From the NCBI RefSeq assembly GCF_019649055.1, contig NW_026570221.1:1178001-1242000 (forward strand): DNA of 64,000 nucleotides, in the 5' to 3' direction. Positions 20,249 through 54,581 of this stretch are shown here, piece by piece. Numbering within the stretch: the first letter of the stretch is position 1; the number at the start of each line of letters is the position of its first letter. A program made the translations under genes and the position numbers. The DNA is from Paramacrobiotus metropolitanus (taxonomy: Eukaryota; Tardigrada; Eutardigrada; Parachela; Macrobiotidae). Below the pieces are notes generated by a model, which did not search any database, had not been told where the DNA came from, and saw only the letters and a list, made by a program, of their open reading frames with translations.

Positions 20249-22807
20249 TTATTTCTCGGTTGAACAAACATCTCGACTTTTTACAAACAGTTCGCCGAGG
20301 AGAAAAAGGCCACTGACGGCAAACATCGACAAGATTAGATTAAGAGTAGATTTTAAAACTAAGATCCGAATGGGAGTGTTATTGTTATCTTTATTGACTG
20401 GTGGCAGTTGGAATTTCATAGGTTCTCGGTGCGCCGCGTAGCCAATGGTTTTGTGAAGATCGATGAAATGTTGTAGAATCCCAGTTTTGGCTAGACGGTC
20501 CATTCTAGATATACAGTAAACTGCAGTGCATGATGCATCTTTGCTAATAAATCAGACATGTTAACGAAAATGGTTATACATGCAAACGGCAGCGCGTACA
20601 GTTCAGTAATATTCCGCGCAAAGGGCGATTGGTGTGGCAGCTGGAAAATGGCAATAAAACCAAAAAGGTTTGTTGGTGTAACCGGGATGAATCCTCCTTT
20701 GAGGAACACCGCCGTCTCTTCCGTGGCAATCAAGGCAATATTGCTGGTCTGCGATAGCGTTGTCGCATAGTCTACAAACTTGTCCACAGAGCTTCCCGAG
20801 TCATAGATCATCACTTTCGGGAGCACTTCGCGTAAACCACTGCTGTTCTGAAATCAAACAAATTATTCGCTGTGTACATTTATTTTCAATAGGGCTTTGT
20901 TAGAATGTATCTATGAGAGTAGAAAATTATATAACGGTCGCGCCCTAGTCTGCGTACTTTATTTACTTTATCTGCGTAACAGTTGCAAATAAGAAGTTTT
21001 ATTGGTTTTAATTTATCACGGTTTTATGGTTTATTATCAGTTTCATCTACAGAGATGTGTTCTTATTATAATTATTATCGTAACATGTAATAATTACAGC
21101 AAATGCGGACCATTAAAGCAAGTTGTATCGTTCCCGCTTGGAGTAGTGGCACGAAATTGGAAGTGACGAATTCCGACACACTTTGAAATGGTGGTACAAA
21201 TGGTGATGCCGTCAAACTAGAACTTAACCGGGCATCCATTATACTGGAAGTTACCAGCGAATACATTAGCAAAATTAATCCGGCGAGATTTGTTCCGTGG
21301 AAACGCCCAGGTCGGTAACGTTCACCTACATCAGACGCCCTGACTATCTCAGCGATTATGGTGAAATATGATACACAATTACACATGCCACGCCTTACTG
21401 CAAACATTAATTATGAAACTGTAATACTATTCTCGTGATTTAACGCTAACTTTTCAAGTTAAAATGACAACATTAGATAGCAAAAGCCTTCTGCGGTTTA
21501 TTCACTTTATACTGCGGTTTATTCACTTTATTGTAATGCTTTTGTATATTTATATATTTATCAAACAACTTTATCAGATTGCGCTCTTACACTGCTTGAA
21601 AATACTAGCCGCGATCTTGAAGCCAACTTGTAAGGCATCCTGTCCCATAAATACAAACCGATCCCACATCGATTCGCTGTTTAATGCGCTGTCACCCTGA
21701 ACAGATATCACAGTTCCACCGCTGACGGGTTTATGGTAGCGCCTATTGATTAACCGCTTTGTTATGTGGTTTGTCACCAGTGTCACGCATCCCAATCCGA
21801 ATGCAGCCACCAGCATTCCCGGCCAGAGTTCCTGTAGCGAATTCCACACCAACGTCGTCAAGATGGGTTGCGACGTCATGGTAGCATCGAGGAAAGACCG
21901 GTTGTGCACGGAAATGTAGTAATCACGTGTGATGTATCCGGCAATCAGTTCGAAATCGCGGACACGTGCCGGATTGGCGGCCAGCGGACACGCGCTCATC
22001 ATGACGTTGCCTAATAATACGTCGGCCGGCGAGCCATCGTACGACACGTTGTCCGATGTCCTAAACTTGTTTAGCGGTGACTTGGCAAAAATCAGCTGGA
22101 ATCTGCACGAAATTTTAAGAAATCTTTTTTCTTGCATAAAGGTTACTAAAGTTATTATACAGTATACAACAATGTGATTTTTGGAAATACAAATAATACC
22201 GTAATTGTACAAAGTACTTATGGCTGATTTTACTCAATATCTAATTGAACCCACAGATAATTATATTTCCAACACAGTGTTAGGTGAAAGCCTTCGATTT
22301 TTTTAATTTGCAATGGTTCGAGAATTTTAAGCAGTAACTCGCAAGTAAAGTTTGTGCATCATGAACAATAGAGTGTCTTGATCAATTTTATGAAGTCTCT
22401 ATGAATTGGTTACGGGCCGTAACGTATAGAGACTTACGGCCACAGTATTTGTAGAGTGTAGACTGTAGTGGATGAAAATCACAGAAAATTATACTTGTAT
22501 TTATATTCGTATCATGCACGATTTTGCTGTTCGATACATACCGATAATTCAACTCCTTGGAAATAATGGACAGAATGCTAATGGACACTCCGCAAAAGCA
22601 TCCAGAATTAGGGGGACTTTCGAAATTCCATGGCGGATTATCGGATACACTAACCGTTATGTAACGATCATCCCGGTGGTTGGCCTTTTCATGGGCATGA
22701 TCGTAGTATGAGTAATCTCCATATTGGTCAGTGCAGATTCGTAGATGTAACAACTGACACAAACGGTATTGTCCACTGCGATTCATTTCAGTTATAAGGT
22801 CTTCCAT
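20249..22807 (-). CDS. IR-like ionotropic glutamate receptor 1 (IRL1)
   Basis: Predicted ligand-gated channel subunit of the ionotropic glutamate receptor superfamily, plasma membrane. Five exons: 22542-22807, 21591-22102, 21111-21325, 20600-20847 and 20249-20504, phases 2-1-0-2. Exon 1 encodes the start of the S1 half-domain (TVSVSDNPPWNFESPPNSG, then a CFCG cysteine pair). Exon 2 holds the rest of S1 with CPLAANPAR, whose Arg matches the glutamate-carboxylate Arg of classical receptors, and membrane segment 1. Exon 3 carries the third membrane segment with LSSSLTASP. Exon 4 is S2 with an acidic EET motif. Exon 5 is the last membrane helix. The pore-loop end reads FKQC rather than the QG of its relatives. 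There is no amino-terminal domain and no clear signal peptide. It is the most divergent member and lies apart from the rest, separated by the peptide gene and retroelement. All frames are open. Confidence 0.85.
21491..21531. repeat. 21-bp tandem duplication
   Basis: The unit ctgcggtttattcactttat occurs twice in a row with one base between. It lies just beyond the splice donor of IRL1 exon 2, inside intron 2. Confidence 0.8.
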
Positions 22808-24106
22808 AGAGGAGAAAACTGTGTGGACCTACAACTACAAGTAATAATTACTGCGAGTTCCTTCAAATGGAAAAGCAGTAGATTTCCATAATTCTGAACT
22901 AGATATTGGATTACAACCTACGGATTCAGCCTGTATTTTTATAATAGTCTATAAACGGCATTGTTGTACAGATCGCTGGTAATCGGCCATTCGATACGAA
23001 GGTTTCACGTTGCAGTCGCAGCTTCGCTCCACTTCCGGTTGCCATACAGCTGCTCAAACATCATGATTCTGCTGTTATCGAGGTTACTACCCATTTTGCG
23101 TTGTGCCAAAGGACGTTTTGAAATTTTATTGCAAAGTTACATATTCTGAAAATGGGTAACTACATCAAAGCTTAATTTTCATTTATTATATTTGTCGCCA
23201 TTACTATTAGAATTATTACATGATTAGAATTAGCGCTTTTTCTATTCTAGACCTTAAGTTAGTCTATAATTATGATTCTAAAAAAACGTTTCCAATATAG
23301 TTCTACTTAGTTCCGTAACAAAAACCGGTTTTGATGTTTTTCTTTATATATGCATAGACTTCATTTAATTTAAAATTAGCATTTTACTGACAATCATAAA
23401 ATTAAAATATCGCTGCATCATTTTTTATATAATGCTGCAGTACAATTCGATTTTAGCGAAGCGGGAAGATGGAAAAAGCTGTTCGTGTTTGTACTATAAA
23501 ACGGAAATTGGAAGATTAACGTATTTGTATTGTTAAGCGGAAATTTAACGTTGAAGACTCTGCTTTGCTGGCAAATGTCCAGAAATGGCTGAGTAGGCCA
23601 CTATTAATAATATTGCACTCTGTAGTCGTCGATCGAATAAACAACCATGTGTGTAGATTTCACGTTTGTGATCAAGGTGTAGCGCACCTGTATAAATGAT
23701 TAACGACTTAGTTATGCTGCTTTGGAGTTCCTTCAAAAAATCTTTCCAATGCCTAATTTTGCATGCCAATAAATTCCATTCACCCATGGCCAAAAAGTGC
23801 TGTAACTTCTTCACTGAAGAAACCGTATTCACTTGATTGCCATGCGCTGTATTATGTTCAAATCGGCATGTGTATAATTATCGTTTATTTAGTTCGTCCG
23901 CCAAAACCCTTACCTACCACGTTTCTCGCATTGATGAACAAATTATTCGATTTTTTTCATAGTAATGATTACCGGCGCGTTTAACTTATGCGGCACACTT
24001 GTATGTGCATAATTAACGCTTCTGCTGGAGCGGCGCGTGGTGGAAATATGTTTTCTGTGTAGTCATGATCACATTTCGCCCGCAAGGTATTTGTGGAGGT
24101 AAACCG
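22808..24106. other. Intergenic between IRL1 and the secreted peptide gene
   Basis: The sequence is AT-rich. The longest open stretch (minus, 23545-23832) shows no recognisable domain, signal peptide or splice context. It should include the IRL1 promoter near 22810-23100. I see nothing else. Confidence 0.4.
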
Positions 24107-24112
24107 TATAAA
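24107..24112 (+). promoter_or_regulatory. TATA box of the small secreted peptide gene
   Basis: TATAAAG lies about 145 nt upstream of the ATG at 24253, placing a start site near 24137 and leaving a ~115-nt 5' UTR. It is the best-formed TATA element I noticed, consistent with a strongly expressed small gene. Confidence 0.45.
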
Positions 24113-24252
24113 GGCCCGGTTGACTCTGCGGACTAAGTTATTGCATATCATTGAACGGATTATTAATCGATCGCGTGCTACTTCAATAAACATTTTTAGC
24201 AGACGTGTTGGTGACCTTTCTTCATTTCCTCTGTTCCGCTAAATAATTCAGA

Positions 24253-24692
24253 ATGAAGCTTTTAGCCATTGTTTTTGGAATAATCTTCGTGATTTGCGCC
24301 TTGACTCAGTCAGGTAATCTATTTTTACCTCTCACATTACTTACTTCCATATTAAGTGTACTGACGTGTTTCTGTAGTTAACATTAAACGATGGTACATC
24401 ACTTAAATTAGTGTACGTAACAATTTATCACTAGCATAAACAAAATCATTTTTACTCTGCCTAATTGATTTGTCTCAGCGGAGTTACTGGAAATCTATTA
24501 GTACTTCTCTGCAGGATATTAGGAATTTCCGTTATGTACAAGTTATAATGCCTTATGTTCTTTTTTATAGCCTTGGCGCAAGGTGACATCTGGATTGGTG
24601 GTGGTGGATCCGGACCTGGAGGTGTCATATTTATGGCAAAAAATCCGCAGCCGAAGGACTTCCCATCGCTTCTCCAGGCTTTAAGAAAATAA
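24253..24692 (+). CDS. Small secreted glycine-rich peptide precursor
   Basis: Two exons, 24253-24313 and 24571-24692, give a 60-residue product. The first 20-24 residues (MKLLAIVFGIIFVICALTQS, then ALA) form a textbook signal peptide. The mature part of about 36 residues begins QGDIWIGGGGSGPGGVIF and ends in LLQALRK, followed directly by TAA that overlaps an AATAAA signal. The intron is GT-AG in phase 1, a common position at the end of signal sequences in secreted peptide genes. There are no cysteines in the mature region, and I see no dibasic processing sites except possibly the terminal RK. I do not recognise the family. It could be a neuropeptide-like, cuticular or antimicrobial peptide. 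The TATA box, signal peptide and correct splice sites make a real gene likely. Confidence 0.6.
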
Positions 24693-26112
24693 ACCCAATC
24701 GCTAACCGCACCGCTTTGCCGCGACAACATGACAAAAAGACGGATTCAAAACGTTTCTTGGGTTCTCATAACATTCATCATTTTACCGTGAACTGCTTTT
24801 ATGCTTTTTGGCGTGCACACCCCATGACACTGTTCGATCGCTGTTCTGCGCTAGTTTGTTGACTTGACCACGCCCGCACCAGCGTGGCTGTCAAGTATAC
24901 CTACAGATGCTGTTGTTTTAAACAGTCATGCGACTACTGAGCATTTTGTATAAACTTTTTTGTCCTTTCTTAAAACAAAAAATGTTTGTAATTCGCAGTT
25001 AACACCGGCAGGCTATTAAACTTCAGAACGATAAACTACTTCATAGCTTACTGGTAGTCAAACATTGCTCTTACCTTGATGAAATGTCAGTTTTTACCAG
25101 AATGCCAGATTGTGTGGTTTTATTGTCACCATAACTTGGGAAACTTTGCATTATTTTACACGTTACAGTAAAATAGCATTCGACGTACAAAAACACGGTG
25201 ACAACTTTACGATACTGGTCAAACCCTGTATTCAAGAAAGCAGGCAACAGCTGCATTCACCGCGTGTAGTTGTCATATACTCGTATATATGTCAGCGATA
25301 CAACTTTTAATAGTTTCTCTTTCAAATTTTCCTATTCCTGTTTTAGATATCGATACTATAAACACGAGCTCTTTAAATTTAATGATTGTGTGTACGTTTT
25401 TTCAGTGAAAAAACTTGGTAAACAATGCTTTTGAAGTTTTTTAACCTTGGAGAGAGCTCGTTGGGCTCGAGTGCCCATAGTTTTACCATGCAAGAAAGGT
25501 CAACAATTGAGAACTCTTCTTGCATTTTGCCTTCCAGTGACTGCAGCTGCAGATGTGCTAATCATAAAATTAATATCGTCCAGTGACGCATATAGGTAGT
25601 TATATTCGTACCGTATGTTTACAATAGCGCGCTAAAAAGTGTGGTCGTAAAAGGTTACATAAACAAAATTCTTATGTCGTGCACGTCCGTTAACTGCGCA
25701 GACCGGATACCGATAGGTATTTGCATTTAAACAGGCGCCAACATTTCCTGAAACCGGTAGCCACCAAATGTCACCTAGACAGCGTTCCTTCCATTGTCTG
25801 GGTGACTTTCGGTGGCCACCAAGTTGGCACTGTCAGATATTCTACCCTACTCTAAGAAAGGCACGAGAAATACAACTTGTCACACGCGCGTGTGTGCATC
25901 TTTAAAATATATGTCTGTAAAAGACATCATTGTACAGGCTACACTTCGTACCTGCAGTAAAAGACTTGGTCGGATGTAGAGTACTCGTACTACGTAGGTA
26001 CCTGGAAAAATGTTAAGAAAAACCCGCACGTTGGCTGAGAAGAAACCGGTTGTAACTGTTGCGCTGCTTACTCATGCTGGTTTGTTAGCGGCATCTGTGT
26101 TCACTTCCGAGG
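24693..26112. other. Intergenic region with hairpin; left edge of retroelement unresolved
   Basis: No gene is evident. A hairpin-forming inverted repeat occupies 25756-25820. Somewhere after about 26000 the DIRS-type element begins, but I could not find its terminal repeat, so the left boundary is uncertain. Confidence 0.4.
25756..25820. repeat. Imperfect inverted repeat (hairpin)
   Basis: The left arm ggtagccaccaaatgtcacc pairs with the right-arm sequence gggtgactttcggtggccacc. About 23 of 28 positions match across a roughly 9-nt loop. It may be a foldback element remnant or a structured RNA. Confidence 0.55.
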
Positions 26113-27469
26113 TTGGGATGTACAAGTATTCGTCTACGTACAATGTGCCTGCATGAAAGCGGTGAATACACAAAAGGAACGGCACTGAAAGGAATCACTA
26201 TCGACCAGTGGCTCGCGTATGATAGGCAGTTCCGGTTAGCTGTCTGTCGAAATCCGAACGATGTCATGCAATGGTCACACAGAAACGATGATGCATATAC
26301 CGAGTACTTGCTGCAACCACTTGGGCATGACGCTGGTCAACCCACAGGCGGTGTAAGCAGAAATACTACGGTTCAGTGCTACAACTGCTGGGAATTCGGA
26401 CACATCAGGCCTGAATGTCCGACGTTGCATAGTAACACCAGCAATCGTCGTTCTTCATGGGTTGGGCAGTCGTTTCTCAGTCCCCCGCTGGAAGCGGGGG
26501 AGCAAAAGTTGACGAAGTCTGCCACCTCTGGAACAAAGGTCACTGCACAGCCGGTCTGTTCTGCCGATATGGTCGCCAACACCGATGTACCAGCTGTGGT
26601 CAACGTGAACACCGCGACTTCCAGTGCAAATCAAGAGCCAGTAACAGTTCCCAGTAATATCATTACTCCGTTGAAAGCTGAAGCTTTTGCAAACTATCTT
26701 CGTGAACACCCAGATCAGGATTATGTTTCATATATTTTGTGTATTTTGCGTTATGGTGCTGATATCGGATACCGTGGTCCAATTCGGAGCATTTCTACGC
26801 CTAATGCCGCATCTGCACGCATGTATTCCGATCACTTGCAGGCGCAGATTAATGCGGAAGTATCTTTATCGCATTCAGTACAGTAGGTCCTTTCTCTAAC
26901 CCGCCATTTCCAGTACTTCTAGTTAATTCGCTGGGCGTAAGACCAAAACCGGATGGGAAATTTCGTATACTGATGGACATGTCCCGGCCAGCTGGTGAAA
27001 GCGTCAATGATTATATCAGCAAGGATGATTACTCTCTAGCATTCTGCAGTGTAGATGACGCCGTTCGCATGCTTATTAAACTGGGCACAGGAGCTTTAAT
27101 GGCTTATTTATTTGATTTGCAGCATGCTTTCCGACTTGTTCCGGTAAGACCTGCCGACTGGCATTTATTAGGCTATCAGTGCGACGGGTTGTACTACAGA
27201 CTGTACTTCGATATCGTACTTCCTTTCGGTTCTCCCTCCTCTCCATTTCTATTCTGTCTAATATCGAATGCGGTACATTGGATATTCGTACATATAAACG
27301 GGCATGTTTTTATGCTACATTACGTTGACGACTTTTTTATCGCAACGTCGGCTGATCATCTCCTCTGCATGTCACTTATGAATAAATTTCCTGAATTGTG
27401 CGCAATTCTCGGTGTCCCATTAGCTGATAAAAAAACTGAAGGCCCGTCTACAACGCTTAACGGGATGTA
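26113..27469 (+). mobile_element. DIRS-type retroelement: gag-like and reverse transcriptase remnant
   Basis: Three open blocks in different frames read in element order. The first (26113-26886) has a CCHC knuckle, CYNCWEFGHIRPEC, and later LRYGADIGYRGP, typical of the segment before the reverse transcriptase in DIRS-order elements. A second zinc-finger-like stretch (HLWNKGHCTAGLFCRYG, then CTSCGQREHRDFQC) lies in another frame at about 26510-26640. The third (26900-27469) is the reverse transcriptase itself, with FRILMDMSRP, YISKDDYSL, ADWHLLGYQCDG, PFGSPSSPF and the catalytic box YVDDFF, then KKTEGPSTTL. The frames are broken by stops and shifts, so the element is inactive. No long terminal or split repeats were found. 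Confidence 0.8.
26482..26500. repeat. Perfect 8-bp stem hairpin inside the retroelement
   Basis: CCCCCGCT and AGCGGGGG flank a 3-nt loop. It sits between the CCHC knuckle and the second zinc-finger-like block, near the point where the coding frame switches. Confidence 0.6.
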
Positions 27470-28312
27470 ACTGTTTACAACATGCCAATTTTATTGACAA
27501 CTTTGAGAATTTGTTGTGCGCCTTTGGTTGGTCTGTTCTCGAAGTGCAAAGATTCATTAGAAACCTTATAAATTGCACTTTTTAACATATAAGTTTTAAA
27601 ATGAAGCCTAAAAGTGCAAACGGGATATAAAATATTAAGTTGTATGTGCCCCAAAAACTACGCTGAAGCACCCAATGGGGCAACTTCAAGTTTGCTGTTT
27701 CTAAATATAACGTATAATTTTTTTACATATTGATTTATTTGGAAAAATCTTATGTAAAAATAGTAAAGATATAAATTTTAAACATGAAACTAATTCCCTA
27801 ACTGAGAAAACCACTGAGCGTTGGAATTCGAATTGACTCCAAAACCAAAAAACCCAGTATGTAAAATAATTTTGTCTTCCAACGGTACCAAGAACAGCCA
27901 ATTCCATTGCGGCAATGGATTACAAGGCGCGTAGAACTGTCCAAACTTTAATTCTAGTAAATATGGGTTTTGTTTTCGAAAATGGTCCTCTGCATCGGCG
28001 CAGAAAGTAAACATACCACCACGCTACCTGCAGGCTGCATATAGCGTTCATCAAATCGCAGTCTGCGCGCGGTAGCAGCGCAACGCAGACACGCAGCCCG
28101 CGTGCGGTTGTTTGCGGTTCGGTTTGAGAGGAGATGGCAGTTAAGTGAATCGAACGTACTGCTGGACCCGAGCGTCGTTTTAGACCCACGGTACCTTTTG
28201 ATCTTTTACACAGTTGTGCTTTTATTTGGATCTTCGATTTTCGAAAAAACATCCATTTTAAAGAGCATTTTTTTCTACCTGGGAAACTGTAGCTATTGTA
28301 ACTCCTCTGAAA
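27470..28312. other. Interruption between reverse transcriptase and RNase H of the element
   Basis: Coding similarity to DIRS reverse transcriptase stops after KKTEGPSTTL and resumes near 28320 with RLKCLGIVLGS. The intervening ~0.85 kb has no recognised coding content. The 7-mer tgaaggc occurs at 27437 and again at 28314, which could be a target-site duplication from a secondary insertion. No terminal inverted repeats were obvious. Confidence 0.4.
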
Positions 28313-29044
28313 ATGAAGGCAAAACAATTACCTCGCCTTAAGTGTCTTGGCATTGTGCTTGGTTCTGTTTCGCAGACACTCAGTCTACCGCACGGGAAAC
28401 TAGCTGATATAATAGCTCTTCTTAATACCTGGAAATTTAAAAGTGTGTGCAACCGTACAGAATTGCAAAGTCTAATTGGATCTCTCATGTTTGCATCGAA
28501 GTGTGTGCCGGTTGGTCGTCTGTTTACGAGGAGGCTTATTGCACAACTGTCAGTGGTAAAAAATTTAACTGAAAATAAGATCAGTCTCGACGACGATTTT
28601 CAAGGGGATATCGACTGGTGGCTTGAACTTCTTCCAAAGTGGAATGGTACAGCTAAATTTCTCGAACCAGATTGGACTCGTTGCGATACAATCCAGCTGT
28701 ACACCGATGCATCAGCTACTATCGGTTGTGCCGGATATTTTAATGGCGCTTGGTTTCAGTATCGCTGGCCAGCTTATATATTGGATGCAGAACTATCAAT
28801 AGAGTGCCTTGAGATGATTCCCATACTTGCTGCACTAACACTATGGGAATCAAAGTTGTGCAGGCGAAAAGTAATTTTTCACTGCGATAATCTCGGCGCC
28901 TCTCAAGCCTGGGAAAACTATACATCTTGTAGCAGAATTGTCCTCGAAATAATGCGTCGGATGGTGGCTATCGCAGCTCAACTTAATTTTTCTATTACTA
29001 TTAAGCATATATCTGGTATTAACAATAGCATTGCTGATTCTTAA
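28313..29044 (+). mobile_element. DIRS-type retroelement: RNase H segment
   Basis: The open frame continues the element: LGIVLGSVSQTLSLPHGKL, a helical connection with LQSLIGSLMFASKCVPVGR, then RNase H with LYTDASATIGCAGYF, ELSIECLEMIPI, IFHCDNLGASQAW and HISGINNSIADS. The Asp and Glu positions of RNase H are present (YTDAS, IECLE, FHCDN). A stop follows IADS. It is in the same orientation as the reverse transcriptase block and separated from it by about 0.85 kb. Confidence 0.8.
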
Positions 29045-29149
29045 TGACGGTTTTAGATGAAACCTTTTTTGCCAGCCTTGTGCCAAACGCAGATTCATTA
29101 CAGCTAAATGTACCGGAAAGTCTACTGATCGATCTGCTAAATTGTCATG

Positions 29150-29640
29150 CGCTTCATCGCTAGATTGCCTTGATAAAACAGTCAACAGACTACGATTTCA
29201 TCATATTGCGCTACCTTCTAGAAAAACCTGTGGAAGTGGCATGAATAAATTTACCGATTTCTGCCAGCTGTAACAGTTATCTCCGTTAAATATCACTCAA
29301 TCAACAATATTGCGGTATTTGGCTTTTTCTGTTTGAAAGTGGTATTTCTTATTCTTCTGTCAAAGTTTACTTATCAGCGGTTTACAATTCGCTTAAAAAA
29401 ACGGTTCAACTTTCGACTTTAGCTCCCTAGTATTTCTCAGTGTCTTCTCGGTTTTAAGCGTCTACAAGGCGTAATTACGGACAGCAGATTGCCAATTACC
29501 ATTGATCACATGCGCGTTATCAAGTCAAATATCGATCGATCGGCGGTTTTATCAGTGCACGAAAAACATTCATATTGGAGCATGTTTAAATTGTGTTTCT
29601 TACAGCATGTTTACATTACATTGATTAATAGAAAATTATT
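29150..29640 (+). mobile_element. Tyrosine-recombinase remnant of the DIRS-type element
   Basis: Degenerate coding sequence in shifting frames reads like the recombinase of DIRS/Ngaro elements: FTDFCQL, a YSSVKVYLSAVYNSLKK stretch (core-binding region), then FKRLQGVITDSRLPITIDHM and a SYWSMFKLCF segment. Stops and frame changes are frequent, so it is a relic. Its presence after RNase H is what assigns the element to the tyrosine-recombinase retroelements rather than to LTR elements. Confidence 0.6.
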
Positions 29641-35590: not shown

Positions 35591-35726
35591 ATCAGCATGT
35601 AAAGCGTAGAATGCAAAACCGGCATTCTTATAGACGTTGTTCGCTGCTTGATTGGCGGATCAGCATGTAAAGCGTAGAATGCAAAACCGGCATTCTTATA
35701 GACGTTGTTCGCTGCTTGATTGGCGG
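35591..35726. repeat. Perfect 68-bp tandem duplication in IRL4 exon 5
   Basis: Copies at 35591-35658 and 35659-35726 are identical over all 68 bases, beginning atcagcatgtaaagcgtag. Because 68 is not a multiple of three the duplication shifts the frame. Perfect identity suggests it is recent. Confidence 0.95.
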
Positions 35727-37420
35727 ATTCGAAAAGAACGGTACTCTGTACGCTGAATATAGCAGAGTCATATGTAGCTCAATCAATCGCTTTAAACTTC
35801 CTGATTTTGCCATCCAGATAACCCTAAATGGAACAGCAAAGGTTCGTAATTAGTAAACGTATTCTGTTCTCAGGAACTGTAAGTTAGACCAGAAGTATGC
35901 ATAACCCCTTGTATTATTCGCTAGTTTGCTTAAGCTTACAAGTTGTTAATATGCGGGCTCAAAGGTGACCGCAGAGGCAGCTGGTACATTGCGACATGAT
36001 TGTAGAACGGCGTACGAGCGGCCACAATAAACCCCGCTTTTTGCGGCAACGGGCGCATTGAACAACGCAATTTTCTCATCGGAAGAAAGCGATGCGACGT
36101 AATTGATAAAGAGTTCGAAAGAAGTTCCAGCATCGTATTGCCGCATTCGTGTCCGAAGCGGGCGCAGTGTTGCGCTATTCTACAGTATTTGCAGAATAGA
36201 GACGAATGGGTTAACAACAAACATGAATAATAACTGAAAAGGGCGTTCATAAAGGGGGTATTTTATAGGATGCATGTATATTGATGCCCCATGCTTTAAA
36301 GTTTAAGGGGAAACTTCGAACAGGTTTATTACACCAGATAATATTAACCAACAGCTTAGGGAACATTTTGATTATTAGTGCAGTACATACCATAAATTCG
36401 ATAGATGCCGTTTTCGCCTGGAACATTGGATCAAACCCTGATTGTACAAAGCCCGTAACTGTGCGAAAGGGTGGTTCCAGAAACGATCCAGCCAGACTGG
36501 AACTAACGTTAGCGCCCATTAGATTGATTGCAAAGAAGGAGTACAGCAGCCATTGCACTACTGCCAGTTGTGCTCCGTGATAGTGCGGTATTTCGACGCC
36601 GCCTGTATTGCAAAAATTCGAACGGTTGCGCACTAAATTCTATTATTTCATTAATTTTTTGGTTTTCTCACCTTGACCAAAAAAGCTGCGAAATAAATCA
36701 TACGCTGTGTCGAACAAAGCAATGATTTTCGAAAAGATCACGTTCTTCCAAAATTCACCAATCCATACGGCATTTGGCTTGCCAATGCTGCGCATAAACA
36801 GCAGGATGAAAAAAACACATATACCCGATAATAATAATCCCGGCCAAGAATCGCTCATTGCTTTGGAAAACAGGCCATTCAGGATGGAATTTCCCACAAT
36901 CCCCGAATCGACCAACCACCGTTTGTGAATCTGAATTTCGTATTCCCGCAGGAAGAACCCGTTAATAAGTTCTAAATGACGTACCCGAGTTGTTGACGCA
37001 GCCAACGGAATAATACTCATGTTAACCTTCCCTGAAAGCAAATCCGCTGGCGCCCCATCGTATCTGGTCCCATCAGATGTAACAAAGGTTGTTACCGGTG
37101 CCGTAGCTGCCTTGAGAAGAAATCTGTTGATTTAAAACGAAATTGCTTAAATAGTTATAAAACTATTATTGTGACAACACTCACTGCAGTCCGAGCTTTT
37201 GACCTATCAGCGCTAACACAGCTATAGAAATCCCACAAAAACATCCGGAACCAGGCGGACTTTCAAAGTTCCACGGCGGATGGTCGGAAGCACTAATCGT
37301 GAGCACTTCCATGGTACCATTAAAGTTATCTACTGCCTTGCTATCTTCATCAGATCGAGGGTTGCACAGTGTTATAAACAGCGTTTCGCAAGCTCGATAG
37401 AGGCGCTGCTTTTCATCCAT
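35591..37420 (-). pseudogene. IR-like receptor 4 (IRL4), pseudogene
   Basis: All five exons can be traced: 37185-37420, 36672-37123, 36391-36602, 35940-36179 and about 35591-35823. Exons 1-3 are open, with PPWNFESPPGSGCFCG, IIPLAASTTRVRHLEL, SFFGQG and NVSSSLAGSFLEPPF. In exon 4 the frame breaks after KIALF: the expected acidic motif is lost and reading resumes one frame over at PQKAGFIVAARTPF. In exon 5 a perfect 68-bp tandem duplication throws the frame to a stop within the last membrane helix. Independently, the tail after the duplication is about 4 nt shorter than in paralogues and sits in another frame. Exon 3 at 212 nt has a clean codon loss. At least two independent disabling changes make this a pseudogene. 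Confidence 0.85.
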
Positions 37421-43634: not shown

Positions 43635-46521
43635 TCATTCAACTAAAACGTTTAGTGACCTTGTTTGTGCACAAAGTTCTAAGCAGAAAGCTAAAAGCGC
43701 GCAACCAAACAGAATTAGAACAATGTAGATAGAAGACATCAAACTCGATATTCGAATGGATGCCATTTGGGGTCCCATTTTATGAGACCCATGTCCAGGA
43801 AGGAAAGGAACCTTATAGGCTAAATTAGCCATGTCAACATGTAGAGCAGCTAGATGCCTCAGATTTCCAGTTTTCGCCATCCAGATAATTCTTGTTAAAG
43901 GTCAGAGAAAAATAACATGATATTAATGCGCATGTACGAGAGTATGATCATTTAAATACAATATTTAACCATGCGCTGCATTGTGTTGCAAATAACAGCA
44001 TTCTTACATATTATTAATGGTTTCGTCTAGGGGTGAATTGGTAGGCAGTTGATACAGCGCTACATAGCTATGGAAAGGGGACTCCACAGCAGCGATAAAC
44101 CCGGCTTTTCTATACATTGGTGTTTCATAGTCGCCGAAGATCGCGATCTTTTCCGTTTTTGACAAGGAAACAGCGTAATCAATCCTGTCCGAGAAACTGT
44201 CGGCATCATACTGCATTAACTTTGAGGCTAGTGGTTTCAACGATGGACTATTCTAAAAGATCAAGAAATAAGGTCTCAGAAATTGCTGCGAATTCAACAT
44301 TCCCGAATTCAAAAACAACCAGGTTCAAAATCCTATGCTAGACATCATCCTAGCTCGATATGGGCTACCTACACTGACTCGAAATAAATTAAATTAACAC
44401 TGCCAGTTACATTAACGATTAGTTAATGTCGTCTTCCATGCCATCCACACATAGCGTTGTTACAGAAACTGAGGAAGCTGGTAACTGGAAACGCGCACCA
44501 GGTTTAACAACGGTGATCGCCGCACAAGAAAAGCGTTATTTTGGTTTAGTGCCACCAAAAAACAAAATGCAGCGGATGCGCGACGCGCGGGAGGACACAA
44601 TATTATAATTGTTTCGATAGTAAAGTCAGTAGTTCAGAATGCGGAGCGCACAGTTCGAAGAAGGCGGCTAACAAAGATACCAGCGATGCCGTATGTGCAG
44701 AATGCCTGTAATTTGTACGTACGTCGTTATATACGTACGGTTTACCTATTCTTGTCTTGGGATTCTGATCGCTAATCTATCAGCAATTCTGAGTGGGGAT
44801 TATGATTAGTATGAGTTTTTGGTTTTGGCCTCTTGAGTCTCGCAGTTTTGAGAGGGAGAGCCTGGATGCAGCGCGTGCAGTCTTCGGATGTGTTATCTGA
44901 TCCTCAGTGACCTTCTTGTGGAGGATAACATCCAGATACTGGATGCGTGCGTACGGGTAGATCACCGTTAAGAGCAGATATTCCCGCTATACCGACTAAG
45001 TTGGTTGGTCATCTAGTACGAAAGTTGCACTACCTACTACGGAAATTGTAGTGCAACTTCCGTAGAAGTACTCGTATAGCATGTCACCAGCGTGCTGGAC
45101 GGCGAACCGCGCGAATGACGGTCCTGTTTGAATGGTCGAGGCGACGAGCAGAAAGCAGAAGAAGCGTACCATTAACTTCACGTAACGACAACTAACGTCA
45201 ACGTAACGTAACGTTAACTTCACTTCTTCGAGTCAATTAGCCATTAATAATTAGTTATTCCTCGTTTCTGCCTTGCGTGGCATTTATTATGTAGAAAAGC
45301 AGTTTGACGCCTTTACCTACCATAAATTCAATCGTTCCTGGTTTACCAAGAAAGAGCGGTTTGAATCCCGAATTAACGAAGCGATAACTGTTTGAAAGGG
45401 TGATACTAAGAACGACCTCGTCAAACTGGAATTCACACTGGCACACATTAGGCTTGTTACAAAATAAGAGTATAAAAACCATTGTAACAGCGCAAACCGG
45501 GCGGCATGACGGTGCTTTGGCATTTTGATGGCATCTACAAAAAGGTTAGCAAAGTAACCGATAATCATAATACCTTTAAGCAAACAGGTATCATAGTGAG
45601 GGAATCTCTTTTACTTGGTGCAATAATAATATTAAATCCCGGCGTGCGTTACCTTTACTAAAGAAACTGCTCAATCGCGTTGATAAAATATCCACCGAAG
45701 GCGGTAAATAAATTGTAACTACGGCCCACTACTGCATTTCTGGTGCGAAAGGAATGTATCGGAAGAATGACCTGTACTTTATTACTAGTACGCAAAACAT
45801 TCAGCACGAAAAACACGCATAAGCCGGTTAGGAGCAATCCTGGCCAATAATCCACTAATGTCTTCCGAAACAGACCATCAGCGATCGAGCTGGCGACGCT
45901 TTCTGACTCTGTTAACCATCGCTCATGAATAAGAATATGATAGTCTCTCATTAGGACTCCCGTAATGAGCTCAAAATGGCGCACACGTGCTGGTGTCACT
46001 GATAAAGGGCAAATGCTGACATTGACTTTCCCCGCGAGCAGATCAGCTGGTGCACCGCTGTATTTAGTTCCGTCCGGTGTGGTGAATTTTGTTAACGGCG
46101 AAATGGCTGCGGATAGTATTAGCCTAGACAAAATTAAGTTGATAACCTTTGTTAAAACATTCTGCAGCAGGTAACATTCGTAGTACAGTTGGTATTATTA
46201 CAAAAGTATATAATACATAGTTTTACAAAGCGTATTTCAGTTTTCAGTAACTTGTAAACAAAACTTCCTGTACCTCATTCTTAGCTTTTGCTGTATAAGA
46301 GCTAGTAACGTTATAGAAATTCCACAAAAGCATCCAGATCCAGGCGGGCTTTCGAAGTTCCAAGGAGGATTATCAGAAATGCTGACAGTAAGTACGTCAG
46401 CACTACTGCCGCCGAGGGCTGACCCATTGCGTGTGTCATTCACGGAGAAAATTGTCCGATCGCTGCATAATGTTAATGATAAAGATTCACATATCTGATG
46501 TAGCCGCGTGCTGGAGTCCAT
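43635..46521 (-). pseudogene. IR-like receptor 7 (IRL7), pseudogene
   Basis: Five exons are present: 46274-46521, 45658-46123, 45321-45534, 44008-44252 and 43635-43890. Exon 1 (MDSSTRLHQICESLSL, PPWNFESPPGSGCFCG) and exons 4-5 are open. Exon 2 shifts by one base just before its end: the expected SSFFSKG reads in another frame, and a TAG appears in the original one. Exon 3 is 214 nt instead of the family's 215, and its frame breaks after SPFQTVI, exactly one base short of a ...GFVNSGF continuation. Intron 3 is about 1.07 kb, five or more times longer than in paralogues, suggesting an insertion. The acidic S2 position is altered to FGDYETPMY. Two small lesions and otherwise good conservation imply recent inactivation, or sequencing errors. 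Confidence 0.78.
45022..45059. repeat. Perfect 12-bp inverted repeat in IRL7 intron 3
   Basis: aagttgcactac (45022-45033) and gtagtgcaactt (45048-45059) are exact reverse complements around a 14-nt loop, inside the unusually long intron 3. It could be part of an inserted element or a structured RNA. Confidence 0.7.
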
Positions 46522-47693: not shown

Positions 47694-49542
47694 CTATGCA
47701 TTAGGTGCTATCAAATTTTTCTTTCTTCTACTTTTGCATTTCACAAGCTCCAATGCAAACATAAGCGCAGCAGCAGTCATGGAATATATCAGTAAGTAAA
47801 ATGTTGAGCCTAGTGCCGTAGCAGTAATGGGGGTGGCTTTTTGTCGCTGCGGTAATGGAGCGGATGGTGGTGGGATGTTGCGCGTGATGAATGTTACTGC
47901 CGTGTGGATATTGACAATGCGTTTAATGGCTCCTGTGCGTGCTAGATGGGTTACCCTATCGGAGCAAAAATGAGCCGATTTTTTACTGTGCTTACTGTAA
48001 GCAGGGCGTTTACTTACACGTTCGTAATCGGTTCATACAGCGGCGATCCCATTGGCAGCTGGAACATGGTCACAAAGTTGTACAATCCCATTCTGGTAGC
48101 AGTGACAAAGTTCTCTACTTGACAGTAGGCACTCTCATGCATGGCACAGATAACGGCGACACGCTCACCGTACTCCGAAATTGCACGGGCGTGAGCGGCA
48201 AACTGTTGTACGCTGCTACCGGAATCGTAGGTTCTTACTCTAGGAAGCATTTCTCGAAGGCCCATACTGTTCTACGATAAAAAAAACTTCGCCAAACATG
48301 TAGCAATATTCTGAAAACAGCATAAAACAACCTACCGGTTTAAAGGCATGCAAACGTATTGCTGATATCAACTACACACGTATTTGTGCATGTTCCGAAA
48401 TCTTGTTTCAGAAAACTGTGTAGTAATTAAATGCTATTACAATTTTAAAGAGGATCCTATTACTGAATATGTTTACCATGAGAGCAGGTTGCGAACTGCC
48501 AAACTGTAATAACGGATAAAACTTGGAATTCAAGAATTCAGTAACCGATCGAAACGGCGGGACGAGCTCAGTTGCCGTTAAATTCGAGCTCAAGAAAGCA
48601 TTCATGACGGTAACAGCCAACAGACAGTAAAGAAGCCACACGATGATTGACAAATAGCTCCCAAGAAACTGTTGCGGTTGATCAATGTCAGCTGCAAATG
48701 AAGAAAAATCGAAATTTAGATATGTATTTTATACACCTGAATCCAAACCGTTCTAAAACAACTGCTTTGCGTGTGGGCTGTACTTGCTTTGGCTTAGAAA
48801 GTTTCCGATAAGATTAAAGAAAACGTTAATCAAATCCGCTACTGTCGTTCGCAACGTTCGCCTACTCCACTTCATTCGACCTCGCTTCCGGATATTGCCG
48901 CGCTGCCTTCGCCACACGCGTATAAAAACCAATATTCCCAGCATGCACACTACGGTCCCGGCTAGTCCCGGCCATGTATCCCGTCCAAAGAAGCTCTTAA
49001 AGATACCAAATAAGATAGACTCGGATAAGACGCCGGAATCTACTAGCCATCGCCTGTGCACGGAAATATAATATTCCCGGACGATGTAGCCGGGTACCAG
49101 CATGAAATGTCGCATCCGGTTGGCATTGACGGCTAAAGGGCACACGCTCATCATGACCGTACCCCACAATAATTCCGCTGGAGCGCCATCGTAGCTTACG
49201 TTATCGGCTGTTTTGAATTTGGTCAGTGGTGGCACGGCAGCTTGCAAAACCAATCTACAAAAGTACTGACGTAAAAGCTGAAGTCGTTTTTGTGATTTCT
49301 CCCTAAAATTTTAAGCACATTTACCTATAATTCAGTCGTTTAGCCATGTAGCTTAGAAGTGTAATGGAAAGGCCGCAGAAACATCCCGAACCGACTGGGC
49401 TTTCGTAATTGTACGGTGGATTGTCGGAGATGCTGACCGTTACTACCGTCTGATTATGGACATCCCAGCCAATCTTATCGGAACACACGGTTAACTGCAG
49501 CGCCTGGCAGAGGCGATGTTCGCGATCTGTAGCCATGGCCAT
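47694..49542 (-). CDS. IR-like ionotropic glutamate receptor 8 (IRL8)
   Basis: Five exons: 49325-49542, 48788-49254, 48477-48691, 48018-48271 and 47694-47955, about 471 residues. It pairs with IRL6: NPPYNYESPVGSGCFCG, DNVSYDGAPAELLWG, CPLAVNANRMRHF with the ligand-type Arg, AFLSSNLTATELVPPF, S2 with YDSGSSVQQF and AMHESAYC, and final helix STFYLLIYSMTAAALMFALE. Exon 3 is the family-standard 215 nt. Phase bookkeeping at the exon 2 end works only if the intron begins GCAAGT, a GC-AG intron. The nearest GT, 4 nt further, would break the frame with exon 3. The start is the second or third Met of a longer open stretch, chosen because it matches the position of the starts in paralogues. Confidence 0.85.
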
Positions 49543-50295
49543 CCTTGTAAAAGTAGAAGTAGCGATCAGCACGCAGCAACATGAAGTCTTATTCCCGCAC
49601 TGCTTGCAAACAATCAAATACTGAAATTATCCACGCAGTGGCCAAGAAACTAAAGAGCTATCCATCAATGGTGCCACCGGCACTGACAGTTATAGTGAGA
49701 ATTACACAAATCCATCCAGTTATCCATGCGATCGCGGATCGACAAACCAGGAAGCGCAACGCTGTAGGCTTATTTGTTTCCCAAAGAATCACGTACTTGT
49801 GACATATGAAACGTCTATTGACAAACAGAAAATTACCTAACTTCGTTTTCTGGCGATATTCAATATTCTGCAACTGAAAGTCTCTGCAAACATATGACTT
49901 GGACTGGTGCGCGTGCGTTTGAATACTGCGCGGTGAAGCTCAATCAAACTAATGTTGCCGATCGGTCTACTCGGAAGTCGATGAAGCGCACCTTTGTTTG
50001 CAAAATTAGGCTTTAATGCTGATTCGTATAAAAAAAGTATCTACTGAGAGGGGCTTTAAATAAACATAGTGTATCCACTATCCAGCGCACAGCGGTAGTC
50101 TCCTACTCGTAAAACCAAAAAACGAAAGCACATAATGGGTGAAATGCTATGTTTTCCCAGTATTGGCACGAGTATGAGGATAAAAAAGAGCAAGATTAAC
50201 AAAATGCACCTTAAAATTAGTACGCTACCAATAAGAAATCATTCAAAGTGTATGCATGCATGCTTGTTTTACTGGTCAGTGAACCATAGAGAAAT
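49543..50295. other. Divergent intergenic region at the orientation switch
   Basis: IRL8 (minus) and IRL9 (plus) are head to head across about 750 nt, so both promoters should be here. I see no clear shared element or TATA box, and no coding sequence beyond short chance frames. Confidence 0.4.
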
Positions 50296-52227
50296 ATGGA
50301 TGACATGAAGTTATACCGCGCCTGTGAAACTCTCCGGCTTACTGTGTGCGCCCATTGGCCTTTTTCCGAAGCCGACGCCAACGATCACATTTTCCTGCAC
50401 GAGAACAAATTCAACATTTCCAATGTGATCACAGTAAGCGTGAACAACGATCCTCCATGGAGCTTTCAAAGTCCACCCAATTTCGGATGTTTTTGCGGAA
50501 TATCCGTTTCAATTCTAGAGTTAATTGGACGCGATCTCGGACTTCGGTAAATTAACGTTTCTAACTTGATGGTTTGAACCGAGGCATTAATTACGGAGCG
50601 TCTAAGTTTCTGTTTTCGATACATGCGCTGCTTTAATTACAAGTTTTCCCTGCATTTTAATAACATATTTAACAAGCTAGAAGCAATATGGTTTCAGTTT
50701 TATTTTACGCACGGAAAGCCGACTGGGCACTCTTGCGAAAACACCGGATGGTGTAAAGTATTACGGAGCAGCAGGTGATTTGCTCTTTGGATACGCCGAT
50801 ATGAGCATTGCTTCGTTATCTGTGACCTCGACTCGGCTGCAGCATTTCTGCATGGTGACCGGTTACCTGCTGCGGACCTACAAGGTATCCGTTCACGAGC
50901 GGTGGTTGGTTAAATCCAGTTCAGCGGCTGAGTCCATATTGGAAGCTTTGTTCTACACCGCCATGGCTAGCACGTGGCCAATAGTGTTAGTAACAGCCGT
51001 CTGTCTGTTTGTCACATTGATCTTGATGCGCTTTGTCAAGCACAAAAGTCTTCGGAAACACGCAGACGCGCATAAAGTGGTACCTCTGCATGTGCAATGC
51101 TTGGAGACCGGTTGGACAGTCATAAGCAACTTTTTCAGCCAAGGTAACCTCTTTGAATCAATGTTGGTTTTGTACTGTATTTACAGTTTCTATGCAAAAT
51201 TGTTTTTTCTATGCAAAATGTTTCAAGTGATATAATTAAATTAGCCGTTCACATTTTACTCGAGACTGTTAATTTCGTGCACTAAAATAATCGCAGTAGA
51301 ATGTTTCCCGGCAGATGACATGCAGCGACCTCGGCGCTTTGTGGGTGCAGCGCTAACAGTTACTGTCTGGTTGGTATGCCTATACTTCACCACCGCGATC
51401 ATGTTCGCCCGCGTCAACTCCAGTTTAACGGGCTCCATTTGGGTACCACCTTTCTCTACGGTGCCACAGTTTGCTGAATCCGATTACAGCCCCATGCTGC
51501 TTACCGCAACTTCGCCCATCGAATTCATGGTAAACTGCTTGGAAAAATTAGTTTTAAAATTTTTTATGCGAAAAGCACCAACAGACGAGGTAGATGCAAC
51601 GTCGTTAATAAAAGTATTTTGATATCGCGCAGACTGGCCGCGGAATGCAAATTTTGTTGAAGAGATTGCGTCGGTACGATGGTATCACTGTATTAGATGA
51701 TTTATTGTCATTGGCCGCGATGCTTTCGGAGACAGAAAAAATCGCGATTTTTACCAACGATGACGAAACACCCATTTATCGAAAGAAGGGCTTCACTGCC
51801 GCAATAGAACTGGCATATGGAACATCAGTCGCTCCGTTTCAGCTACCGCTGGGGTCGCCAAAAGCACCACAGATGCAAAAACTGTATGCGGTACAGTGGG
51901 TACACCCACCTGAATTAATCAATGCCTTCATGTTTGGGTTTGCATAGCTTCTTTTTAAGGATTGAATGGCTAACCATGACGGGCAATACAAAGGCTCTAA
52001 TTAATTTACACAAAGAAATCTTGTACCTGGCTCATGATTTTCCATTCGTGCCCAAATCGAAAATGGCTGTAAAGCGAGTGGCGTCAATCGGCACTGAAAG
52101 CTTGGAATCGACGATGAATGTTGTATTGATTCTTCTTGGCATTGCAGCTTTGTTGCTAGTTTTGGAAATTTCATGGCACTGGTTAGCTGTTTCGATGAAC
52201 CGCTCTTATCCGGCAGCGGTACGCTGA
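50296..52227 (+). CDS. IR-like ionotropic glutamate receptor 9 (IRL9)
   Basis: Intact plus-strand gene with five exons: 50296-50546, 50698-51143, 51315-51529, 51633-51883 and 51960-52227, about 476 residues. Exon 1 starts MDDMKLYRACETLRL and contains DPPWSFQSPPNFGCFCG. Exon 2 has KYYGAAGDLLFGYADMSIA and ASLSVTSTRLQHF; the S1 Arg is kept although the preceding Pro is lost. It continues with HERWLVKSS, membrane segment 1 and pore-loop end FFSQG. Exon 3 has ARVNSSLTGSIWVPPF. Exon 4 (S2) has RYDGITVLDDL and the acidic TNDDETPIYRKKGF. Exon 5 starts IEWLTMTGNTKALINLH and ends with a membrane helix. It forms a third subgroup with IRL10. Introns of about 75-170 nt are the shortest in the array. Confidence 0.87.
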
Positions 52228-52617
52228 GAAACTTTGCAAATTATCATGAGTGCAACTTCCGATTAAAGTGCTCGGCATTTGTTTGTGTAACCCGGTCGCA
52301 CTTTGTCAATACCGGGTACGCTTAGTTAGGAAACTGGTGCTCCACAATGGATACGCTTACAAGGTACTTCGGCTCCCCACGGTATACGCAGACAATCGAA
52401 CCGAATTCGATGGCACAGTTCTACTTCAAAGTAGAAGCAGCATACGTCACACCCTTTACCTTATATTCCAGTTTTAAGTTGCTATAATATTATATGTTTT
52501 TGAAGAAGCAACTGAGTAAGGTGGATTTACAAAACAAAGTGCAACACCTAAAAATATTGTAAATTTGTGCAAATCACGCATCCCCATTAGCATTTGCCAT
52601 TTATCGAGCAAAGGTTG
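52228..52617. other. Intergenic between IRL9 and IRL10
   Basis: The gap of about 390 nt has no recognisable feature. The two plus-strand genes are in tandem. Confidence 0.4.
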
Positions 52618-54581
52618 ATGGAAAAAGAAAAACTTTATCGTGTTTGTGAGGCTCTGCAGTTAACGATCTGTGCGCCTCAGTTTCTAGCGCAATCGGCTTC
52701 CGAAACTAGAGGTGGCGTTTTCGTGCACGAACTCGCTGCCAACACTTCGAGCATACTTACTGCCAGTGTCGCCGAAGAGCCGCCTTGGAGTTTTGAAAGT
52801 CCACCTGGTTCGGGATGTTTTTGTGGGATAAGCATTACAGCACTGTATTTCATTGGGCAAAAGCTTGGACTAAGGTATATACGCTGCACAATAGCATTTA
52901 GCTGAGTCTTGATCACTAGAACGGCATCTTTGACCTTTTTTTTACCGATGCAACATATTTTGGCACATTTTTTCAGTTGATCGTAGCACCTTTGCCCTTA
53001 TTTTCTAGGTTCATACTAAGTTCAGAGAATGTTAACGTAACTGTGGTGCGTAACGGGATCAAGTATTACGGAGCCCCCGCAGAGGTTATTCGAGGACATG
53101 CTGACGTCAGTATCTCGGCGCTATCCGTTATTTATACACGCCTGCAGCATTTAAACATGGTCACCGGTTATTTATTGCGGACTTATAAAATCTGTGTGCA
53201 TGAGCGCTGGTATATGGATTCCGGATGGGCGGCACAATCCATCCTTGACGGGCTGTTTGATAAAGCCTTAACCGGCACTTGGCCGGCGCTCTTACTAACG
53301 GGAATCTCACTTTTTGCGGCACTGAGGTTGTTGCGTTCAGCTAGGGAAATCAGAAGGATCTCTCGCGCCTCCTTGGGATCCAAACAACAAAATCAGCTCA
53401 GATATACGCTGCTATACGATGTTTGGGCACTTGTAACCAGCTTCTTTAGTCAAGGTATGTAAAGAATAATTTTCCGCCGCAAGAGAGTAAAGATTTACAA
53501 GCGTGCTCCAAACCGCAGGCGATATTCATAAGCCACACCGATTTGGTGGAGCGGCGCTGGCGGTGGTGATCTGGCTTCTGTATATCTATTTTTTAACTGC
53601 TATGATGATTGCCAATATTAGCTCTAGTTTGACTGGAACCTTTCTGACGCCTCCATTTAATACAATATCGGAGTTTGCCGATTCGGATTATCAGCCACTT
53701 CTATGGACCGAAACATCTCCGATTGAATATATGGTAGGTGCACGGTACACCATTGCACAGATTACCTAAGTACATAGCGTTTATAAGAAAACGAAGCGCG
53801 AGCTTTTTCAGAAAACACGCTAGACGCTAAAGTTTGTTTGCTAAAAAACAGATTTTAGCGTCCGTGCTTGCAAAATCTAGGCACTCAAGGCATTCGTTAG
53901 TGTATTTAATAAAAAATGCATCTCCATGATTAATCACTTTAATGAGGGAGCGTTGTGGTTTATATAGAGTGGCAATCAACTGGCGCCACTTTTAGGCAGG
54001 ATGCAGCGATTCGACAAAATCCCGACACTTGACGCATTTGTTGCCGTAGCCAGAAATCTTTCCGAGGATGTTAAAATTGCGACCTTTACCAAGGACGATC
54101 AAATTGCAATTTTTAAGCAAATGGGATTTATCTCATCCATCGAAAGGGCATACGAACGATTTATCTCTATGTACCAACTGCCACTTGGATCGCCTGTAGC
54201 ACCTCGGTTTACACACTTGTATCCATACAAGTCTTCCTATATTATTTTATTAATTTTATTATTTATTGTTTAATCGTTGAAACTTAATTCTGCATTTTCA
54301 GGGTTAATTGGATGGGTATGACTGGAAGTCTAAAACCTACAATCAGTTTACAAAGAGAATTGATTTATCTGGCGCATGGAGTACCGTCCGACAGCCGGCC
54401 CCAACGCTTTATTAAAGAGGCACAGTCGATTGGAGCGGAGAGCTTAAGATCAACTATGTATGCCGTCGGAGGCATGCTGTGCTTGTCCAGTATTTTATGT
54501 CTAATGGAAATTTTGTTCTGGAAATGTAGTCACAGAAAACGGTTTGTGACAGGTGCGGCTTCACCTGAGATTATGCAATAG
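52618..54581 (+). CDS. IR-like ionotropic glutamate receptor 10 (IRL10)
   Basis: Intact plus-strand gene: 52618-52874, 53009-53454, 53519-53733, 53968-54218 and 54302-54581, about 482 residues. Exon 1 starts MEKEKLYRVCEALQL and includes EEPPWSFESPPGSGCFCG. Exon 2 has KYYGAPAEVIRGHADVSIS and SALSVIYTRLQHL with the S1 Arg, HERWYMDSG, membrane segment 1 and the pore-loop end FFSQG. Exon 3 has ANISSSLTGTFLTPPF. Exon 4 begins SGNQLAPLLGRMQRFDKI, aligning residue for residue with IRL9, and has TKDDQIAIFKQ, in which the usual Glu/Thr of the acidic box is altered. Exon 5 starts VNWMGMTGSLK and ends with a helix and basic tail. The chosen exon 4 acceptor (53967) is not the first AG but restores the family length of 251 nt. 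Its 3' end converges on GC1. Confidence 0.87.

Follow-up and report, generated by a model that had tools for sequence, protein, structure and literature searches.

The question raised by positions 20,249 to 54,581 of a 64,000-nt stretch of the genome of the tardigrade Paramacrobiotus metropolitanus (contig NW_026570221.1, positions 1,178,001 to 1,242,000; hereafter the window) is what an array of ten short, similarly built genes encodes, and to which receptors these genes are related. We consider it rather likely that they belong to an undescribed, large and divergent branch of the ionotropic glutamate receptor (iGluR) superfamily in this tardigrade, one that resembles the arthropod divergent ionotropic receptors (IRs) in its build and probably in its way of working. 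The loci are named I1 to I10 by ascending window coordinate, a numbering that matches the subgroups of the preliminary description of the array; L numbers denote loci elsewhere in the genome and C numbers denote contigs.

Sequence comparison supports membership of the ten loci in the iGluR superfamily, as the preliminary description had proposed, with family profiles matching AMPA and delta receptor chains in the PDB over S1 to M4. A profile of 7 sequences matches GluA2 (E = 7.7e-12) over profile positions 70-474, from S1 to M4, and a profile of 21 sequences finds GluD1 as its best match (E = 4.7e-20); the best 60 of 249 matches of the former and the best 60 of 342 of the latter are all iGluRs or iGluR-derived constructs. 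The 21-sequence alignment, used for this profile and for a Pfam scan at E ≤ 1, includes one chimeric row (L012B786, whose exon 1 comes from a neighbouring gene). In that scan of single members, PF00060 is matched in 16/21, SBP_bac_3 in 14/21 and PF10613 in 12/21 (best E = 1.5e-9), and the amino-terminal domain PF01094 is absent from the 18 families listed for the 21 members. The ligand-binding domain of iGluRs is related to SBP_bac_3, a solute-binding fold of bacteria. Read from the proteins, the layout is that of a ligand-binding domain split into S1 and S2 halves, with three hydrophobic segments and their pore region between the two and M4 after S2; the pore mostly retains x-Q-(G/D), and M3 can be aligned with SYTANLAAF. 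Furthermore, the likeness among the seven intact window proteins is far beyond chance (all-against-all BLASTP, E = 1.5e-65 or better).

The search with PF10613 and PF00060 that the preliminary description had named as a check gave a divided answer. Against the PF00060 cut-off of 30.8 bits, I10, I9, I8 and I6 score 30.3, 28.3, 26.7 and 20.2, and the single-protein scan lists no PF00060 match for I1, I3 and I5. The cut-off is reached by 3 of the 14 spliced proteins from outside the window, a set from which the chimera was excluded (L009 with 37.0 bits, two L011 genes with 38.3 and 30.9), that of SBP_bac_3 by L003 as the only one outside the window, and that of PF10613 by none of the 21 spliced proteins.

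In the window, seven of the ten loci splice into open proteins of 459-498 aa with intron phases 2-1-0-2 (Table). These phases were imposed in the initial junction listing; a spliced alignment without phase preference, guided by a profile built from the same window proteins, recovered them in six of the seven intact loci (I3, I5, I6, I8, I9 and I10). In I1 this alignment divides exon 2 by a 66-nt intron (21754-21689), so that I1 may have six exons, and intron 2 of I8 requires a GC-AG donor. The exon 3 lengths given earlier are exact (215 nt in seven loci, 212, 218 and 214 nt in I4, I2 and I7), but not all of the ten genes described there share the five exons, since I2 has exons 1-3 and 48 nt of exon 4, only seven loci are intact, and a frame break within the 214-nt exon of I7 had been missed. 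Exon 1 of I2 loses its frame 3' of the CFCGISI motif, and neither a pattern search nor a protein search in which 90 of 128 candidates were scored found the remainder of its exon 4 or its exon 5. In I4, exon 4 measures 240 nt rather than 248 and goes out of frame near 36047, and exon 5 holds a perfect 68-bp tandem duplication (35591-35728); I7 loses its frame twice, near the 3' end of exon 2 and near 45385 in exon 3. The source assembly is described as built from nanopore reads and polished with nanopore and Illumina data (PMC8277472), and for this reason the single-base lesions could be assembly errors, an explanation unlikely to hold for the truncation of I2. Loci I1-I8 lie on the minus strand and I9-I10 on the plus strand, with I8 and I9 head to head and their start codons 753 nt apart.

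Table. Positions of the family loci: window coordinates for I1 to I10, contigs for the loci elsewhere (E, exon).
Feature	State	Position (strand)	Exons	Protein
I1	intact	22807-20249 (-)	E1 22807-22542, E2 22102-21591, E3 21325-21111, E4 20847-20600, E5 20504-20249	498 aa
I2	broken	31143-29707 (-)	E2 30670-30204, E3 30135-29918 (218 nt), E4 48 nt only (29754-29707)	
I3	intact	34816-32328 (-)	E1 34816-34566, E2 33971-33499, E3 33421-33207, E4 33050-32803, E5 32589-32328	482 aa
I4	broken	37420-35591 (-)	E1 37420-37185, E2 37123-36672, E3 36602-36391 (212 nt, in frame), E4 36179-35940, E5 from 35823	
I5	intact	40394-38247 (-)	E1 40394-40165, E2 39722-39244, E3 39169-38955, E4 38884-38637, E5 38496-38247	473 aa
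I6	intact	42760-41040 (-)	E1 42760-42531, E2 42392-41953, E3 41884-41670, E4 41601-41351, E5 41283-41040	459 aa
I7	broken	46521-43638 (-)	E1 46521-46274, E2 from 46123, E3 45534-45321 (214 nt), E4 44252-44008, E5 43890-about 43638	
I8	intact	49542-47694 (-)	E1 49542-49325, E2 49254-48788, E3 48691-48477, E4 48271-48018, E5 47955-47694	471 aa
I9	intact	50296-52227 (+)	E1 50296-50546, E2 50698-51143, E3 51315-51529, E4 51633-51883, E5 51960-52227	476 aa
I10	intact	52618-54581 (+)	E1 52618-52874, E2 53009-53454, E3 53519-53733, E4 53968-54218, E5 54302-54581	482 aa
Clade A loci		10 in window; 3 at C1:1114-1125 kb; 3 on C71; 1 each on C32, C8, C52, C102, C85, C164, C91, C223		
Clade B loci		8 on C164; 3 on C93; 3 on C31; 1 each on C10, C59, C23, C396, C148, C116		

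The lineage-specific expansion suggested earlier is seen as an expansion, but one that is not confined to the array. Five protein searches of the genome (169,799,020 bases in 533 contigs, the window being C1:1178001-1242000), with matches grouped into loci by hand, give at least 44 family loci on 18 contigs, among which haplotype copies are possible; one search was queried with the chimeric L012B786, and a match on C118 (E = 3.6e-4) was left out. The loci fall into two clades. Clade A comprises 24 loci with the five-exon plan; outside the window, 9/14 have exactly the phases 2-1-0-2 without a frameshift, one of these with a stop. L015 (C91) was placed here by its exon plan, although the clade B profile scored higher (333 versus 271). 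Clade B comprises 20 loci with exons 3 and 4 fused, of which 7 among the 17 modelled are exactly 2-1-2 and the others variant or frameshifted; exons 1 and 2 are also fused in one of its genes on C164. That contig (235 kb) carries about eight clade B genes and one clade A gene within 120 kb, at 45-165 kb (L010-L014). The family models have about 400-500 aa, and introns are spread along the gene, with four in most clade A models and three in most intact clade B models. A set of 26 models, open across the aligned part, underlies the comparisons below; it includes L003 model A869 with a doubtful 5-nt exon, and two L013 pieces were excluded. The models of L010B and L019 end before M4.

The same genome also encodes a canonical AMPA-like gene that groups with GluA2 in the tree, and other canonical genes that we take to be kainate-like, GluN1-like, IR25a-like (L033) and IR93a-like (L030). 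Six-frame genome searches with PF00060 and PF10613 return none of the 44 family loci among their matches, from which weak matches may escape, whereas the PF00060 search does find L033 and L030. A separate group of PF00060/PF10613 genes outside the family, including L032, lies with several nearby copies on C75 (252-277 kb and 625-632 kb). We also observe 36 genome matches to PF08395 (7tm_7), a gustatory-receptor-like family, many of them in single open frames. Matches to PF00982 lie on three contigs, and PMC8277472 describes genes for trehalose synthesis (TPS-TPP) in this animal; PF00115 (COX1) gave no match.

The likeness to IRs rests on the ligand contacts and the short N-terminus. The equivalent of R485 is R in 26/26 family models, that of T480 is T in 1, S in 12 and A, G or F in 13, and that of E705 is never E (0/26), in a column that depends on the alignment and often has an acidic residue a few places on. 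The 11 canonical control rows have R in 9, T in 8 (S in 2, L031 and L033) and E in 7 (D in 2), with the L029 model poor in this region. With the same reservations about these columns, the family has the incomplete glutamate contacts by which Croset et al. (2010, PMC2924276) define IRs, namely a ligand-binding domain without one or more of the glutamate-contact residues. It also has the short N-terminus without an amino-terminal domain that this source reports for all but a few IRs.

In the tree, a 100/100 branch splits the 26 family rows from the 11 canonical rows, with clade A at 96/81 and clade B at 99/99. The subgroups of the preliminary description reappear for the intact loci, with I6 and I8 together (100/98), I3 and I5 with L005 (98/99), I9 and I10 with L010A (100/99) and I1 apart; I2, I4 and I7, which it had joined to I3 and I5, are outside the tree, and the pairing of I5 with L005 itself is weak (86/53). 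Because I9 and I10 group with L010A and I5 with L005, both on other contigs, the window array is no single simple tandem burst. Between the nearest intact window pairs, dN is 0.31-0.47 and dS is saturated, indicating that the duplications are old; with dS saturated, only dN and codon-position differences were used. In five intact window paralogue pairs, second codon positions differ far less than third positions (0.21 versus 0.59 for I3/I5), and the proteins have therefore been under constraint.

With respect to introns, positions 2-4 were compared by eye, with no chance level, with ten canonical models; intron 1 was left out because several canonical models cannot be trusted in their upstream part. 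An intron of L036 (SLMMQ|GCD; 1/10 models) has the same position as intron 2, which interrupts the pore Q|G in phase 1, and introns of L036, L031 and L028 (3/10) correspond in place to intron 3, of phase 0, with a length difference of one residue. Intron 4, of phase 2 after SPLxxx(I/L)xx, is found as in the IR25a-like L033 (1/10). Judged from the alignments, three of the four family introns thus have a position and phase similar to those of introns in the genome's iGluR or IR25a-like genes.

How the N-terminus would reach the outside of the cell is less straightforward. Two conserved N-terminal cysteines lie 7-9 residues apart, the first at residue 2-17 in the 26 models; outside the window the start Met was taken by rule as the nearest in-frame ATG, a choice supported by the steady distance to this cysteine pair and by upstream comparisons. 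Mean hydrophobicity, computed without a signal-peptide program for 22 proteins (one of them a chimera), gives no signal-peptide-like stretch in the first 43 residues, the highest 19-residue mean being 1.08. According to PMC5769321, 26/49 mosquito iGluRs/IRs had a predicted signal peptide, and many insect annotations likewise lack one. N-glycosylation sequons in the 26 models are nevertheless enriched in the N-terminal linker (21 versus 8.5 in shuffled sequences) and in S1 (29 versus 12.3), with 0/5000 shuffles as high in each case; these figures overstate their weight because related rows are not independent. The M1-M2 loop has 3 sequons versus 5.7 shuffled, a depletion that is not significant (763/5000 as low), and all 26 models carry a net positive charge in the loop after M1. 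A cruder count (22 proteins, one chimera) gives 27 versus 20.3 expected in S2 and 4 versus 2.4 in the C-terminal tail, the latter contrary to the prediction for an inside tail. Taken together, sequons and charge would place the N-terminus outside. Translocation of a long N-tail by M1 is one way in which this could come about, and a missed leader exon is the other.

The latter alternative, in which a missed 5' exon encodes a signal peptide and the N-terminus is ordinary, is quite possible, although we do not favor it. Most genes have AG dinucleotides in the interval from the upstream stop to the ATG (rows without a motif-finder result were L010 at 2377 and the two entries of I8), and short, fast-evolving exons are easily overlooked. 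On the other hand, the intact L002 and L005 have no AG from the in-frame stop to the ATG. In addition, upstream BLASTN of 11 paralogue pairs gave 9 that match, and in 8/9 the similarity sets in at a point from 2 nt upstream to 16 nt downstream of the ATG, and those 8 show no further upstream block over the only about 1.1-1.7 kb compared; the exception is L019/L013, where similarity extends 147 nt upstream of the ATG.

The converse reading is that of a tardigrade-lineage family (at least 44 loci) that has lost its signal peptide as well as its amino-terminal domain, with an N-tail of about 145-180 residues, which contains the first lobe of the extracellular ligand-binding domain, crossing the membrane led by M1. 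Such a family would form a dedicated carboxylate- or amino-acid-sensing repertoire, because the gripping arginine is found in every intact model, and would have been overlooked because Pfam cut-offs miss most members. We regard this fuller account as tentative and, as a whole, rather unlikely.

That the cluster is mostly the relic of a decaying family with little present function seems improbable. It would explain why 3/10 window loci are broken and why ten models elsewhere are frameshifted (L006, L007, L008, L017, L020, L021, L022, L023, L026 and one L011 gene) and L015 has a stop, although some of these lesions could be assembly errors. It does not fit the 26 open models, and the second-position conservation with saturated dS in the five intact window pairs demands long constraint.

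A decidedly improbable alternative is that of ordinary glutamate-gated synaptic iGluRs that lost the amino-terminal domain. The retained R485 equivalent, Ser at the T480 place in 12/26 as in 2/11 canonical rows, and the introns common to the family and the canonical genes of the genome are all compatible with it. Ala, Gly or Phe at the T480 place in 13/26 and the complete absence of E at the E705 place, in its alignment-dependent column, versus E in 7 and D in 2 of the 11 canonical rows, argue against it; so do the long branches, the dying genes and a copy number in the dozens, all unlike most iGluR loci here, although the C75 group is also multi-copy. Finally, an inverted topology with a cytoplasmic ligand-binding domain sensing an internal ligand would suit a start codon without a hydrophobic N-terminus, the nonsignificant M1-M2 depletion and the sequons of the C-terminal tail, but the sequon enrichment in linker and S1 and the positive loop after M1 make it very improbable.

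Several observations weigh against the divergent IR-like branch that we prefer. The label IR rests on the build and on changed ligand residues and not on resolved descent, since the tree, with its long branches, places the family with neither the IR25a-like nor the IR93a-like gene; approximately unbiased (AU) tests give p = 0.377 for the family with the IR25a-like row, 0.074 with the IR93a-like row and 0.225 with both. A clear loss at the T480 place is confined to 13/26 models because Ser (12/26) is also present in the canonical L031 and L033, and the E705 column depends on the alignment. IRs do not usually keep this arginine throughout. The missing signal peptide has no explanation in a protein whose ligand-binding domain is extracellular, 0/7 intact window proteins reach any Pfam iGluR cut-off, and AlphaFold2 models of six window proteins were too poor for use in both runs (mean pLDDT 39.4 and 38.4).

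Should the family work as divergent IRs do, it would probably be chemosensory, and its members would be ligand-gated cation channels of sensory cells by analogy with the IRs of Croset et al. (PMC2924276). Four subunits would assemble into a cation channel, perhaps with an IR25a-like or IR93a-like subunit of the same genome as partner. A small external ligand, probably carboxylate-bearing because the carboxylate-gripping arginine is invariant, would shut the S1/S2 clamshell; M3 would then be pulled open and the sensory cell would depolarise. The kept arginine itself suggests carboxylate ligands. The repertoire would have expanded by DNA duplication, since introns are kept, with continuing gene death.

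In comparison with known systems, the family shares with insect divergent IRs as described by Croset et al. (PMC2924276) an iGluR-type pore, a ligand-binding domain in two halves with altered glutamate contacts, the lack of an amino-terminal domain and large repertoires at the species level, both tandem and scattered, with pseudogenes. It differs in its introns along the gene, whereas Drosophila divergent IRs are mostly single-exon according to that source, and the few or no introns, biased 5', of insect divergent IRs are not what we observe here. About 40-70 residues precede the CFC motif, versus the roughly 200 before the domain given there for most fly IRs. The arginine of all 26 models, the conserved N-terminal cysteine pair and CFC motif, and the absence of a recognised signal peptide set the family further apart from insect divergent IRs. 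With the IR25a-like L033 it shares the superfamily and the position and phase of intron 4, and it is not grouped with L033 or L030 in the tree, although the AU tests do not reject such a grouping. AMPA, kainate and delta iGluRs resemble it in the profile matches over S1, pore, S2 and M4, and introns 2 and 3 are common to the family and the genome's iGluR genes; unlike these receptors, it has no amino-terminal domain, incomplete ligand contacts and models of only about 400-500 aa.

Several other elements lie in the window. A retroelement-like stretch (26089-29041, plus strand) between I1 and I2, about 0.7 kb from the point where I2 breaks off, has a zinc knuckle (weak, below cut-off), a reverse transcriptase (PF00078, 1.1e-11) and then an open reading frame without a Pfam match. 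Beside I10, receptor-guanylate-cyclase-like exons are found at 54776-56666 (minus strand), with a kinase-like part that is weak and below cut-off (PF07714) and a cyclase part recognised by eye. An exon at 19142-19519 (minus strand) carries the first 30 homeodomain positions (8.7e-8), and a gene at 4464-5273 (minus strand) encodes both a dual-specificity phosphatase (2.6e-37) and a DEK_C domain (3.5e-13), the layout of Slingshot phosphatases. Rfam gave nothing at gathering scores in the window.

The preliminary description had known of no receptor family with such a layout, and we likewise found neither one nor a tardigrade IR repertoire in the open-licence literature, where absence is no proof. 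The words glutamate and ionotropic are absent from the main text of a tardigrade comparison paper (PMC5531438), as are receptor and glutamate from that of PMC8277472. A family that mostly evades an IR search with PF10613 and PF00060 would alter chemoreceptor gene counts in the tardigrade phylum, and Pfam-only IR surveys can overlook most of a repertoire. Such a family could also help to establish when, near the root of the arthropods, divergent IRs arose. The missing signal peptide, if confirmed, would offer a simple test case for inserting a long extracellular N-terminus in the membrane.

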